DNA from: an uncultured Erysipelotrichaceae bacterium
GTDB taxonomy: Bacteria > Bacillota_I > Bacilli_A > Erysipelotrichales > Erysipelotrichaceae
DNA: 11,206 bases
Assembly (NCBI GenBank): GCA_902784015.1
Contig: CACZTC010000061.1
Coordinates: 1-11,206 of the forward strand
Reading direction: 5' to 3'
Within the stretch, counting starts at the first letter, position 1. Each line of letters opens with the position of its first letter. Under the pieces are notes generated by a model that saw nothing but the letters and a program-made list of their open reading frames with translations, did no database searches and was not told the DNA's origin. This document shows positions 2,125-5,792 of the stretch, piece after piece. Position numbers and translations under genes: made by a program.

Positions 2125-3923
2125 CTTTTTATCTCCCTTGTTGCCTTCTTAAGCCATGCTTTACCTTTTTCGCATAGATATGGAGATATAGTTTTATAAA
2201 CTTTCTTATGATAAGCATTGATATCTTGAATATCTATATCATCTAAATACTTCACATCAATCGCATCTAATTCATATGGGCAATAAGTAATATCTTCAAA
2301 TTTTAAGAATTGACCATATTCATTCTTCTCATCTTCTACAACTACTAATTCATTTTCAATTCTTATACCTAATTTATCACTCATATATACGCCAGGCTCA
2401 TTAGTTACAACCATACCTTTTCTTAAACTAACTGCTGGTCTACTTATTGTAGGTAAGCCCCATCTTATTGAATGAGGTCCTTCATGTACGCCTAAGACAT
2501 GCCCAACGCCATGCCCCGTACCGCACTGATAATCTATATTAATATTCCATAAAGGTCCTCTAGCTAAAATATCTAAATTATTACCTGAAGTACCTTCTAG
2601 GAATTTAGCTCTAGCTAAAGCTAAATGACCTTTTAAGACTAATGTATATAATTTCTTTTCTTCATTAGTTAATTTACCTAAGGCAATAGTTCTAGTTATA
2701 TCAGTAGTACCATCTTTATAAGTGCCGCCTGAATCAACTAATAAGAAACCTTTCTTATTAATCTTAGCGTGACTTTTTTCTGTAGCAGAATAATGCATCA
2801 TTGCGGCATTACCACCATAAGCGCATATTGTTGGGAAAGAAGGATGAATATAATTTTCATTCTTCTCTCTTAATTCATATAGATGATTTTGAACGCTAAC
2901 TTCATCCATATCAATTACACCAATATTCTCTTTTATCCACTTGATGAATTTAACCATAGTTACACCATCTTTTATATGCGCATTTTTGATGTTCTTTATT
3001 TCAATATCATTCTTCATCGCTCTAAATAAAGCTATTGGTGAAGCTTGATTAATAATCTTATTATCTTTAGCTATCGCATTATATAAATTAGTATTTAAAG
3101 TATTTAATGATATCCAAATCTTCTTCTTATGATATTTCTTAATATCTTTTTCTAATTCATCATATTCTTTAACAATTACTTTATTATCTTTAAAATATTT
3201 ATTTACTTCTTTATTTACTTTTCTTTTATCAACATAATAAATAACTTGATTCTTAGTTATTAAACTAAAAGCATAACTAAGTGGTGTACAAGCAACATCT
3301 AAACCTCTAATATTTAATAACCAACATGGATCTTCTAAAGCTGTCAAAATTAAAACATCAGCTTTCTTCTTTTCCATTTCTTTTCTTACTCTTTTAACTC
3401 TTTCAGCTATACTTTCGCCTGTATATTTTTTATCTAAGATAAATAATTCTTCTAAAGGCATAGCTGGTCTATCACTAACCCAAATTTCATTAACCAAATC
3501 TAAATTAGTTTTAAGCTTCGCTTTTTTCTCTTTTAATACTTTTTCTAAATATATCGTAGTAGTTGCAGAAACAACCCTACCATCATAGCCTACTACACCA
3601 CCTTTAGGGATATTATCAATAATATATTCCATCGCTGTAGGCACACCTGCTTGAGCCATCTTCATTAATTTAATACCACTACCTTTTAATTCTTTATTAG
3701 CTTGGATGAAATATCTGCCATCTGTCCATAAACCCGCAAATTTTTGGGTTACTACAACACAACCTGATTCCCCTTTAAAGCCAGATATAAAAGATTTACT
3801 TTTATAATAGTCAGCTGTAAATTCTTCAGATAGATGATCATCTTCGTTAGGGATGTAATAAACATCTATTTTATTCTCTTTCATTAGTTTTCTTAATGTC
3901 GCTATTTTACTTTTTGTATCCAT
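2121..3923 (-). CDS. pepP: Xaa-Pro aminopeptidase, long three-domain form (M24B)
   Basis: Cytosolic metallo-aminopeptidase that removes an N-terminal residue preceding proline. At 600 residues this is the long form resembling eukaryotic XPNPEP1: two creatinase-like N-terminal domains (about 1-150 and 160-300), then a pita-bread catalytic domain (about 310-540) and a C-terminal extension. Metal ligands are visible: Asp397 (LLVDSGG), Asp408 (TTDITRT), His471 (GTGHGVGH), Glu509 (TNEPGVY) and Glu523 (RIENE). Substrate-site histidines His377 (MMHYSA) and His480 (VHEGP) are also present. The residue four before His471 is Cys467, where human XPNPEP1 has His. The start ATG has an AGAGG about 8 nt upstream. 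It is first gene of the unit and ends in an ATGA overlap with the exonuclease gene. A possible -10 box and inverted repeat lie just upstream. Confidence 0.93.
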   Translation of the reverse strand: MDTKSKIATLRKLMKENKIDVYYIPNEDDHLSEEFTADYYKSKSFISGFKGESGCVVVTQKFAGLWTDGRYFIQANKELKGSGIKLMKMAQAGVPTAMEYIIDNIPKGGVVGYDGRVVSATTTIYLEKVLKEKKAKLKTNLDLVNEIWVSDRPAMPLEELFILDKKYTGESIAERVKRVRKEMEKKKADVLILTALEDPCWLLNIRGLDVACTPLSYAFSLITKNQVIYYVDKRKVNKEVNKYFKDNKVIVKEYDELEKDIKKYHKKKIWISLNTLNTNLYNAIAKDNKIINQASPIALFRAMKNDIEIKNIKNAHIKDGVTMVKFIKWIKENIGVIDMDEVSVQNHLYELREKNENYIHPSFPTICAYGGNAAMMHYSATEKSHAKINKKGFLLVDSGGTYKDGTTDITRTIALGKLTNEEKKLYTLVLKGHLALARAKFLEGTSGNNLDILARGPLWNINIDYQCGTGHGVGHVLGVHEGPHSIRWGLPTISRPAVSLRKGMVVTNEPGVYMSDKLGIRIENELVVVEDEKNEYGQFLKFEDITYCPYELDAIDVKYLDDIDIQDINAYHKKVYKTISPYLCEKGKAWLKKATREIKR

Positions 3924-3943
3924 ATAAAAAACCTCTTTTATTT

Positions 3944-3973
3944 ATTATATACGATAAGTTCATTATGACTTAT
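3944..3973 (-). promoter_or_regulatory. Possible pepP promoter -10 with operator-like inverted repeat
   Basis: Read on the minus strand, a perfect TATAAT lies at 3949-3944, about 20 bases before the pepP start. Its -35 region is poor (TAAGTC at 17 bp spacing). Overlapping that -35 is the inverted repeat ATAAGT-N8-ACTTAT (3954-3959 and 3968-3973), placed where a regulator could block or assist RNA polymerase. If this promoter is used, the mRNA leader would be only about 14 nt, so the pepP ribosome site would sit at its very 5' end. A second weak -10 (TATAAT at 4052-4047) upstream of the terminator at 3986-4015 is an alternative. Confidence 0.35.
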
Positions 3974-3985
3974 TTAATGCCTCTA

Positions 3986-4015
3986 TAAAAACAGGTATCT
4001 TTTTTAGATACCTGT
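3986..4015 (-). terminator. Intrinsic terminator (minus strand), proximal to pepP
   Basis: A perfect 10-bp stem, ACAGGTATCT paired with AGATACCTGT (3991-4000 and 4006-4015), has a 5-nt loop. On the minus strand it is followed by a run of five T (3991-3987). The plus-strand side has no T run, so it acts on minus-strand transcripts. It lies between the RNA locus at 4076-4383 and pepP. It could be a back-up terminator for that RNA, or an attenuator if pepP is transcribed from further upstream. Confidence 0.75.
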
Positions 4016-4075
4016 CTTACTATATATTTATCATTTATGTTTTATGATTATATATGATATTACTTACTAAAACAT

Positions 4076-4109
4076 AAAAAAGCTTCAAGATTTTAACCTC
4101 GAAGCTTTT
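4076..4109 (-). terminator. Intrinsic terminator (minus strand), end of candidate RNA
   Basis: In the minus-strand RNA a 13-bp stem forms between 4109-4097 (AAAAGCTTCGAGG) and 4090-4078 (TCTTGAAGCTTTT), with a 6-nt loop, ending in six T (4081-4076). Two of the inner pairs are G-U and so exist only in minus-strand RNA; the plus-strand version would have A-C mismatches. The T run is also better on the minus side. No protein-coding gene lies directly upstream on this strand, so it most likely ends a non-coding transcript. Confidence 0.75.
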
Positions 4110-4313
4110 GTCTATTATTAGTTTTTTAACTATTAATGAAAGATATATTTCACTTTATGCAGTTTCCTGCATTTTTTATAAATATTCAATTGTCAGAATA
4201 CTGTGTCCATCGGTCTGTCCTCATGCAGACTTTCACTTTCTTTTTTTTATTTATTTGTCACTTTTGTGACTCTACGTCCCCTCCAAATACTCTGCAATCT
4301 TTGAAGAAGACGG

Positions 4314-4343
4314 CTATTTATATTCTAGTAATACCTCTTTCAT
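4314..4343 (-). CDS. Possible leader peptide of 9 residues (MKEVLLEYK)
   Basis: A short reading frame, ATG at 4343 and TAG at 4314-4316, sits at the 5' end of the candidate RNA, just before its 13-bp stem. An AGGTAGG (4359-4353) lies 9 nt upstream and could serve as a ribosome site, although it also forms part of a small hairpin. Position just ahead of stem-loops and a terminator is what a translated attenuator leader would show. The peptide has no run of a single regulatory amino acid, and so short a frame can occur by chance. Weak support. Confidence 0.2.
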   Translation of the reverse strand: MKEVLLEYK

Positions 4344-4389
4344 AATATTGTACCTACCTTTCTTTTTTGGTACTTCTATTTACACCTTT

Positions 4390-4418
4390 AATATAGCCAA
4401 TTAAAACTATAAAATCTA
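4390..4418 (-). promoter_or_regulatory. Putative promoter of the candidate RNA
   Basis: On the minus strand, TATATT (4395-4390, five of six matches to the -10 consensus) lies 17 bp from TAGATT (4418-4413, three of six matches to the -35 consensus). Transcription would begin near 4383, about 40 nt before the short reading frame. Its location upstream of two minus-oriented terminators supports the call more than the boxes themselves. Confidence 0.4.
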
Positions 4419-4450
4419 GTCTATAAATAGTCTGTTTATTGTTGTATAAT
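4417..4450 (+). promoter_or_regulatory. Putative promoter of the GH13-MATE unit, with TAGTCT direct repeat
   Basis: A perfect TATAAT at 4445-4450 lies 47 bp before the GH13 start. The -35 match is weak (TATAAA, 4422-4427, 17 bp spacing). TAGTCT occurs at 4417-4422 and 4428-4433, eleven bases apart, about one helical turn, between the two divergent -10 boxes. That spacing could allow a regulator to bind one DNA face, or be chance in AT-rich DNA. Confidence 0.4.
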
Positions 4451-4496
4451 AATTTTGTTGGGCAATTAGTGCTCATTTTTATTTAGTGGAGTAATT

Positions 4497-5792
4497 ATGT
4501 ATTTTAATGAAATAATATATCAAATATATCCTTTAGGTTTCTGTAATGCTTTAAATAATGATGATAATACCGATCATAAATTATTAAAAGTTTTAAAGTG
4601 GTTACCTCATTTAAAGAGATTAGGTATTACAACTATCCTTTTTAATCCTTTATTTGAAAGTGAATATCATGGTTATGATACTATCAATTATCTTGAATTA
4701 GATAAAAGATTAGGTAATATAAAAGACTTAGATAAAGTAATTACAACAATTCATAAAGAAGGCTTCAAAATAGTATTTGATGGTGTTTTTAATCATGTTG
4801 GTAGATCATTTCCATATTTCCAAGATGTCTTAAATAAAAAAGAAAATAGTGAATATAATGATTTCTTTTATATTAACTATGAAGACAATAATAATGAAGA
4901 TGGTTTTAGTTATGCAGATTGGGAAGGCCATCATGAATTAGTAAAATTAAATTTGGAGAATTATCGTGTTAAAGATTATTTATTTAGTATAGTGGATGAA
5001 TGGATTAGAAAATATCATATTGATGGCTTAAGACTTGATGTTGCTTATACGATGAATAGAGATTTCATGAAAGACTTAGTTAATCATATTAAGTCATATA
5101 AAGAAGATTTTTTCTTTTTAGGCGAAATGGTTAATGGCGATTATAATGTCTTACTTAATGAAGCTAATTTAGATTCCGTAACTAATTATGAATGTCGTAA
5201 AGGCTTATATTCTTCTTTTAATTCTCATAATCTATTTGAGATAGCTTATTCATTGAATCGCCAATTTGGAAATGATCCTTGGACTTTATATAAAGGTAGA
5301 AAATTATTATCTTTTTTAGATAATCATGATGTAGATAGAATCGCTAGTATATTAGAAGATGAAAGAGATTTACCTCTAATTTATTCTTTATTATTTGCGA
5401 TGCCTGGTATACCTTGTATATATTATGGCAGTGAGTGGAAAGCTAAAGGCACAAGAAATAATCATAGTGATATTGAATTAAGACCTAGCTATGATAAAGC
5501 TATATGGAATGATTTAAGCGAAGAAATAGCTTATTTATCTCAATTAAGAAAAGAATATCCAGTATTCTATGAAGGAGATTATACACAGTTATATATCCAA
5601 AATGAACAATTCGCTTTCAAAAGAGAGAATGATCAAGAAATCATATTATATTTATTAAATATAGCTAATGATGATAAAGTAATCGACATAGATATTAATA
5701 ATTATATTGATTTAAGTAATAATGAAATACTTAAAGATAATTATATAAATCTTAAAGCTAAGACTTATAAGTTATTATATTTAAGGAAATAA
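4497..5792 (+). CDS. GH13 alpha-amylase-family glycoside hydrolase, cytosolic
   Basis: Retaining alpha-glucan hydrolase of family GH13, 431 residues, with a (beta/alpha)8 barrel over about residues 1-350 and a short beta-rich C-terminal domain (about 355-431). The four GH13 regions are visible: DGVFNH (Asp95, Asn99, His100), DGLRLDVA (Arg179, nucleophile Asp181), FFLGEM (acid/base Glu210) and FLDNHD (His277, transition-state Asp278). There is no signal peptide, so it should act in the cytosol, for example on imported maltodextrins or cyclodextrins or on stored glycogen; the exact substrate cannot be read from the sequence. It lacks the extra N-terminal domain typical of neopullulanases and cyclomaltodextrinases. 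The start is supported by TGGAG 5 nt upstream. The MATE gene begins 2 bases after its stop, so the two are surely co-transcribed. Confidence 0.9.
   Translation: MYFNEIIYQIYPLGFCNALNNDDNTDHKLLKVLKWLPHLKRLGITTILFNPLFESEYHGYDTINYLELDKRLGNIKDLDKVITTIHKEGFKIVFDGVFNHVGRSFPYFQDVLNKKENSEYNDFFYINYEDNNNEDGFSYADWEGHHELVKLNLENYRVKDYLFSIVDEWIRKYHIDGLRLDVAYTMNRDFMKDLVNHIKSYKEDFFFLGEMVNGDYNVLLNEANLDSVTNYECRKGLYSSFNSHNLFEIAYSLNRQFGNDPWTLYKGRKLLSFLDNHDVDRIASILEDERDLPLIYSLLFAMPGIPCIYYGSEWKAKGTRNNHSDIELRPSYDKAIWNDLSEEIAYLSQLRKEYPVFYEGDYTQLYIQNEQFAFKRENDQEIILYLLNIANDDKVIDIDINNYIDLSNNEILKDNYINLKAKTYKLLYLRK

Follow-up and report, generated by a model that had tools for sequence, protein, structure and literature searches.

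An 11,206-nucleotide stretch of DNA from an uncultured Erysipelotrichaceae bacterium, the whole of which we call the window, contains a gene-less gap of 573 bp (3924-4496) between pepP (minus strand, 3923-2121) and the open reading frame of a GH13 alpha-amylase (plus strand, 4497-5792), raising the question of what the gap encodes. The initial annotation had placed there an orphan structured RNA on the minus strand, of no recognized class and of open function. We find a structured RNA element at 4383-4076 of the minus strand in this Lactimicrobium (Erysipelotrichaceae), supported by covariation and kept across relatives. It looks like a stand-alone RNA gene, but it is not simply noncoding, since it carries a very short open reading frame (ORF1) and usually a second one (ORF2). 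Both frames, the pairing of a hairpin loop with a downstream segment K and a divergent promoter-like motif had escaped the earlier reading. Genes of the window were named by Pfam (alpha-amylase, MatE, pseudouridine synthase, M24 peptidase and exo/endonuclease), and the names prfB and secA, as well as gene names in relatives, were assigned by reading the sequences. As a side observation, the upstream frame of prfB runs on the minus strand from an ATG at 9122-9120 to CTT TGA, and the CTTTGAC at 9053-9047 (minus strand) is presumably the classical site of RF2 programmed +1 frameshifting.

To describe the element, we folded all 308 nt on both strands. The minus strand reached -76.2 kcal/mol (z -7.4) and the plus strand -58.9 kcal/mol (z -4.6), with 0 of 100 dinucleotide shuffles as good in either case; both strands therefore beat their shuffles, with the more stable fold on the minus strand. 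The hairpins listed in the initial annotation are all present: a 13-bp stem with three G-U pairs at 4312-4275 (P1), a GAAA-tetraloop hairpin at 4172-4157, and two 5-bp hairpins, GUCAC/GUGAC and GUCUG/CAGAC, the latter at 4230-4213. The picture of successive hairpins nevertheless misses the main structural element, which is a pseudoknot between the P1 loop and K, lying beside the ORFs. A further hairpin at the 5' end (4350-4373, minus strand; GUACC at 4373-4369, GGUAC at 4354-4350) is predicted to fold over the Shine-Dalgarno (SD) site of ORF1; variants UACC/GGUA and AGUAA/UUACU were noted by eye and uncounted, and the hairpin was not seen in loci L018 and L020. For the GAAA-tetraloop hairpin, the alignment showed covariation, as all five predicted pairs had changed on both sides; at each pair, between 3 and 9 of the 34 rows were broken or had a gap.

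Two minus-strand intrinsic terminators had been reported, and we recovered both: the first (4109-4076) was found by a terminator scan, which placed it at 4109-4078, and the second (4016-3985), which lies between the RNA and pepP, is evident in the sequence but absent from the scan list. Over both strands of 3400-5200, the scan returned 4 terminator-like sites against a shuffle mean of 0.4. The proposed 5' end at 4383 fits a TATATT -10-like box at 4395-4390 (minus strand), a presumed promoter with an AGACT element upstream at 4422-4418; the consensus promoter scan, however, did not list this box, and its 10 promoter-like sites were no excess over the shuffle mean of 13.3. A loose TA....-GTGxA pattern, counted without a control, occurred in 54 of the 64 loci usable for upstream sequence, two of the 66 rows of our table (see below) having too little of it. 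We infer that the RNA is transcribed from the minus strand, probably from a promoter of its own.

The RNA does not belong to a class that we could name. When the window was searched against Rfam 15, 0 families scored at or above their gathering score, and the best matches below threshold were SpF11 (27.9 of 54 bits) and BTnc005 (25.2 of 174.8 bits). Two sets of additional loci (19 and 20), searched with E values of up to 1, gave 2 and 4 matches, each below the gathering score, so that a known Rfam class is ruled out at the families' cut-offs. 6S RNA was rejected as well, as genome G000 gave no RF00013 match; a 6S match was present in 61 of 77 family genomes (26 over the cut-off), and in G068, G241 and G218 it lay on different contigs from the RNA. 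ARAGORN found 0 tRNA or tmRNA genes in the window. A phage or plasmid element was likewise rejected: three viral matches lacked ORF1, a further search returned none, and a plasmid collection contained no match to the window RNA. Passages of earlier papers (PMC11109978, PMC8632094, PMC6429828, PMC10724649, PMC10286972 and PMC8125031) contain no description of the RNA. Four peptide strings likewise had no match in a literature collection with few subscription papers.

We then asked how widely the RNA occurs. Among 60 relatives, blastn matched 27 genomes, comprising 26 of the same genus (the source genome counted) and, outside that genus, one genome of the order with a match of 36 nt. A pattern drawn from the best-conserved stretch matched 44 stretches in named species genomes, 32 in Erysipelotrichaceae, Solobacterium or Lactimicrobium records and 12 in unrelated ones, and an ORF of the ORF1 kind was absent from those 12. 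R1, a covariance model covering the 3' half, matched 82 of 272 family genomes, namely 59 of 70 from the same genus and 23 in nine other genera; among the 11 same-genus genomes without an R1 match, G071, G077 and G035 have an ORF1 match. A shorter model (R2), largely sequence-based with only 2 base pairs supplied by RNAalifold, was run on 315 genomes of the order and matched 73, every one of them a member of this family. A sequence-only model of the SD-ORF1-P1 region (R3) matched at most 111 of 266 family genomes, tandem arrays included; this is an upper figure because 4 of 31 fetched stretches lacked ORF1 by pattern (L171, L183, L186 and L191), two of which (L171 and L183) resemble ordinary gene starts. 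In genus g33, 20 of 36 genomes had an RNA match, and five genomes (G103, G219, G221, G230 and G257) carry the RNA in two separate copies. The isolate Lactimicrobium massiliense strain Marseille-P4301 also has it (L026, identical to L009), which makes direct tests possible.

For comparative analyses, we used a genus set of 34 loci selected by the core pattern alone, which holds TCTGC and an 8-nt gap, and a table of 66 rows made of these 34 plus 32 R1-found loci. ORF1 was required in the table, and L112, cut by a contig start, was skipped. The R1 model was built from genus-set rows, so that the K letters and the 8-nt gap are partly a product of selection. The 66 rows comprise 60 distinct versions of P1 plus core; L044 is the L121 locus, L054 supplies two rows, and L018 and L020 stand outside the 66.

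ORF1 (4314-4343, minus strand) encodes MKEVLLEYK and follows an SD site, AGGTAGGT, at 4352-4359 (minus strand). An SD-like sequence, by a loose pattern, was present within 22 nt of the ORF1 start in all 64 loci tested. ORF1 itself was found in 34/34 genus-set loci, is mostly 8-9 codons long and follows the pattern MK(E/K)(V/I)L(L/K)(E/N)(Y/F/I), the commonest peptides in the 66 rows being MKKVLLEY (17), MKEVLLEY (12), MKEVLLEF (6) and MKEVLKEI (4). Its stop codon is TAA in 41 rows, TAG in 18 and TGA in 7. Over 42 distinct nucleotide versions, the synonymous share of pairwise codon differences was 0.551, compared to a mean of 0.183 and a maximum of 0.441 after column shuffling (0 of 500 as high). 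This synonymous excess indicates that the peptide is what is conserved, and these codon comparisons demonstrate that ORF1 is a conserved mini-gene with apparent selection on its peptide.

A peptide kept in this way could itself be the product, as an intracellular signal or a peptide acting on the ribosome, with the RNA essentially its regulated mRNA. The synonymous change and the existence of tandem ORF1 copies (e.g., L161 with four, L177 and L178 with three each) fit such a role. We nonetheless consider it unlikely, since it leaves the covarying loop-K pairing and the sequence conserved beyond the ORF unexplained, and by eye the 8 residues hold no signal peptide.

P1 (4275-4312, minus strand) starts directly after the ORF1 stop. 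RNAalifold predicted 0 pairs on alignment A1, which we ascribe to MAFFT leaving P1 stems unaligned when their sequences differ, and we therefore tested P1 sequence by sequence. A P1-type hairpin folded in 34/34 genus-set loci, with stem sequences that vary and pairing that is kept. When the 46 nt after the ORF1 stop were folded, the first paired base lay 0-6 nt past the stop in 65 of 66 rows, and z was -2 or lower in 57 of 66.

The loop of P1 carries UGCAGA (4291-4296, minus strand), and its complement, UCUGCA, forms segment K about 60 nt downstream of the loop (4224-4229, minus strand). We looked for the loop motif between 10 and 34 nt past the ORF1 stop (for CAGACA, within the first 36 nt) and sorted the rows by loop and K class. 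GCAGA/UCUGC agreed in 41/41 rows, 34 of which had been selected for that K; there, only the loop (GCAGA in 34/34) counts as evidence, because the genus-set pattern holds TCTGC. Among R1 rows, agreement was found for GUAGA/UCUAC in 9/9, GCAGA/UCUGC in 7/7, ACAGA/UCUGU in 7/7, CCAGA/UCUGG in 3/3 and CAGACA/UGUCUG in 1/1, with four rows falling in no class. The assignment of L129 to CCAGA was wrong, as it has no such P1 loop, and this row was excluded. Altogether, loop and K agree in 61/61 rows with a correctly assigned loop, 27 of which were not directly selected for K (GUAGA 9, GCAGA 7, ACAGA 7, CCAGA 3 and CAGACA 1). Given that the rows are related, they cannot be counted as independent events; even so, no fewer than five distinct pairings are preserved. 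TGTCTG, the complement of CAGACA, turns up as well in one row of the GCAGA class and one of the ACAGA class, and the loop motif and the usual K are jointly absent from L108, L118, L119, L127 and L129. Shuffle tests of the pairing locus by locus (100 rows) were mostly weak alone because the pairing is short; in several rows, the automatic procedure truncated the loop or the best match fell outside the expected place (e.g., L012, L037, L053, L061, L109, L170, L172, L204, L205 and L206).

The geometry is different in g33, and likewise in G077 and G071, two divergent genomes of the same genus: there, K lies just after P1 and would form an H-type pseudoknot with the loop. A complement of at least 6 bp was present in 20 of 23 such units, with pairings that include TAATCAGC/GCTGATTA, CGATCAG/CTGATCG, TTCTAAGAGT/ACTCTTAGAA, TGATCAACC/GGTTGATCA, TTGCCTG/CAGGCAA and TGGCAGT/ACTGCCA. 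Together, these comparisons, made on sequences, show that the P1 loop covaries with K, as expected of a predicted pseudoknot.

Downstream of the loop, the order of elements is K, GAGG, GACC and the AUG of ORF2. GAGG (4219-4222, minus strand), an SD-like site for ORF2, sits in the loop of the K hairpin (GUCUG/CAGAC, 4230-4213), where K pairs with CAGAC beyond GAGG. The K hairpin and the loop-K pairing share bases and so exclude each other; their energies are comparable, with a mean of -5.7 kcal/mol for the hairpin against -3.4 to -6.3 for the isolated loop-K duplex. At least 4 pairs of the K hairpin are possible in 34/34 genus-set and 24/32 R1 rows, and impossible in L108, L113, L114, L117, L118, L119, L127 and L129.

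ORF2 (4193-4210, minus strand) encodes MDTVF. The gap between AGG and AUG is 8 nt in 31/32 R1 rows; in the 34 genus-set rows the pattern used for selection prescribes it, and there it has no value as evidence. ORF2 is exactly 5 codons long in 30/34 genus-set and 14/32 R1 rows (44/66), compared to shuffle means of 1.9 and 2.0 and maxima of 7. It has at most 10 codons in 33/34 and 32/32 rows (65/66, with 20 codons in the remaining one), compared to shuffle means of 19.0 and 19.8 and maxima of 27 and 29. Its peptide is not conserved past the first two residues, MD in 53/66, which is partly selected. An alternative frame from ATGAGG (MRTDQW...) shows no synonymous change by eye and loses its ATG in L017, and we therefore prefer the frame that opens at ATGG, 8 nt past AGG. 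In g33, GACC is often not followed by the AUG, and a different AUG precedes GAGG, so ORF2 may not be the real output; this shift and the missing K hairpin in some R1 rows are the main facts against a universal role of ORF2. After ORF2 comes a conserved motif, CAATTGAATA (4183-4192, minus strand). AAYT[GAT]AAT was found after ORF2 in 52 of 66 rows, compared to 4 of 66 in a control stretch upstream, and a covarying hairpin, the GAAA-tetraloop hairpin at 4157-4172 in the window, lies 3' of it.

The GAGG-GACC core ranks with the best-conserved parts of the RNA, in part through selection, and it survives in part of g33 despite the changed ORF2 start. This could point to a base-pairing trans-acting small RNA in which the core, or K and the loop, is the seed and the ORFs are stabilising or minor, and the presumed promoter and the terminator of the RNA would suit such a role. 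The coding signature of ORF1 at the peptide level speaks against it, and we find this reading improbable too.

Units of SD, ORF1 and hairpin also occur in multiple copies. The reverse strand of L161 (144-460) holds four SD-octapeptide-hairpin units (MKKILLNY, MKEILLEI, MKEILLNY and MKEILLEI), the fourth abutting a terminator-like hairpin that is followed by a gene that looks HAD-like by eye. Six rows have two ORF1 units. Four of these (L008, L014, L015 and L062) are alike, with an upstream copy that encodes LLNY and has a hairpin without GCAGA and a core-proximal copy that keeps the loop, and L054 and L127 differ; a division of labour is possible in two-unit rows. In genus g57, unit copies lie near contig ends in L164, L165, L167, L173 and L188, and L164 and L165 look alike, as if a recent multi-copy repeat were breaking assemblies. 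In the second unit of L210, ORF2 (MDRIMTRRVQ) ends by eye inside the loop of a terminator-like hairpin, such that its translation could prevent termination. L163 and L189 (g57) both have, by eye, a MKKVLLNY unit, a terminator-like hairpin and then apparently the same gene, possibly a cis-acting copy.

Since the function had been left among a trans-acting RNA, an attenuator and a leader, we asked which genes surround the RNA. Loci of the same genus often have prfB/rluD or NUDIX/GH13 on one side and pepP on the other, and outside the genus the neighbours differ. When ORFs of at least 180 aa were called without a gene finder in 67 loci, 34 had the nearest downstream ORF on the strand of the RNA, 29 had it in convergent orientation, and 4 had none within the stretch examined. 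A classical cis leader or attenuator, in which a hairpin or terminator is kept from forming by a ribosome dwelling on the ORF1 stop, so that the next gene (pepP here) is transcribed, would suit the position of P1 within the expected footprint of a terminating ribosome, the succession of last ORF1, terminator-like hairpin and by-eye HAD-like gene in L161, and the presence of pepP (cluster c1) downstream in many same-genus loci. However, the convergent downstream ORF in 29/67 loci makes a cis leader unlikely as a general role, the identity of the downstream gene varies as well, and in the window two terminators stand between the RNA and pepP. A fixed cis leader of pepP is ruled out as the general role by the varying orientation and identity of the downstream gene, and an attenuator of this kind seems quite improbable to us. 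Chance structure or a DNA-level repeat without RNA function, which could draw on the AT-rich region, the short pairings and a plus strand that also beats shuffles, is very hard to reconcile with z -7.4, cross-genus conservation, the coding signature and class-by-class covariation.

On the other strand, the window has a divergent TATAAT-N5-TGTTGGG motif with a terminator-like hairpin (4445-4484, plus strand) in the 5' leader of the GH13 gene. The motif (TATAAT-N5-TGTTGRGG) was found in 44/64 loci, with a strict terminator in 26, compared to 5/64 for the sense-strand control. L116, partly masked with N, was scored as a miss, and a pattern that refuses TGTTGA gave 37/64 with 0 in the control; we retained the count of 44/64. 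Its position is upstream of the RNA, clear of P1. Look-alikes were seen by eye in most of the other 20 loci, and the motif points either to a very short, conserved transcript running divergently or to an attenuated leader for the divergent gene.

The reading that we prefer, and hold with confidence just short of even, is that the locus encodes a free-standing RNA of about 300 nt with its own promoter, acting as a translation-gated switch. A ribosome with a stop codon in its A site covers about a dozen downstream nucleotides, and this footprint spans the 5' arm of P1, so that ribosome occupancy and P1 should exclude each other. A ribosome at the ORF1 stop would thus cover the P1 5' arm and keep P1 open. 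Once the ribosome departs, P1 would form and its loop would capture K; the resulting pseudoknot would free GAGG from the K hairpin and may let a ribosome start at ORF2. Translation of ORF1, or termination on it, would in this way set the state of both the ORF2 start and the 3' domain. Since ORF2 has only about 5-10 codons and downstream genes vary, the output may be, speculatively, a changed conformation, stability or trans-activity of the RNA itself, and the variation in downstream genes leads us to prefer a trans-acting RNA state. Local antitermination is possible in some copies, given the ORF2 end in a terminator-like hairpin in L210 and the ORF1 abutting one in L161. Extended to the family as a whole, the switch would be a new RNA class, a self-contained translation sensor in which ribosomes that finish the conserved octapeptide ORF switch a pseudoknot, so exposing or hiding a mostly pentapeptide ORF2, and which reports in trans, sometimes as tandem units; we offer this wider proposal tentatively, as something that may well not hold.

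If the switch reading is true, the RNA would be a free-standing sensor of ribosome behaviour, and its closest likeness is to plasmid replication control. RepY-RepZ of ColIb-P9 is a leader-ORF/pseudoknot switch of the IncI complex, and in work by Asano and Mizobuchi from 1998 the pairing is said to join the loop of a stem-loop to a segment just before the second SD. In IncL/M plasmids, a pseudoknot in the rep mRNA is needed for repA to be expressed, and repB serves as a leader peptide with translational coupling (PMC8125031). These IncI and IncL/M switches (RepY-RepZ of ColIb-P9; RepB-RepA of pMU604 and pCTX-M3) couple a leader ORF to a pseudoknot-dependent second cistron, and our RNA, as far as covariation alone indicates, appears to have the same layout of leader ORF, stem-loop and loop pairing before a second SD. 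On the other hand, its second cistron has at most 20 codons in the 66 rows and is not a replication initiator, its leader peptide is itself conserved, and its genus loci often lie beside the housekeeping genes prfB and pepP, with no match of the window RNA in the plasmid collection. With no replication gene involved, the parallel is, on our analysis, one of working and not of membership. An arrangement known from plasmid replication control would thus be found here on its own, without a fixed target gene, in an RNA family that is supported by covariation and that no Rfam model matches at its cut-off.

Leader-peptide attenuators and uORF motifs resemble the RNA in having a short conserved ORF beside a covarying structure. 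Examples are uORFC-6-1 upstream of hflX and odc1 with a conserved 11-aa uORF (PMC8632094). Such motifs lie upstream of a consistent main ORF, whereas our RNA has none (34 same strand, 29 convergent and 4 none). The dual-function small RNAs SgrS, RNAIII and SR1 are stand-alone RNAs with a short ORF. They resemble our RNA, a probable stand-alone transcript, in carrying a small ORF, which in ORF1 shows selection, but here two mini-ORFs are tied by a predicted pseudoknot, and the first peptide is mostly 8-9 residues long.
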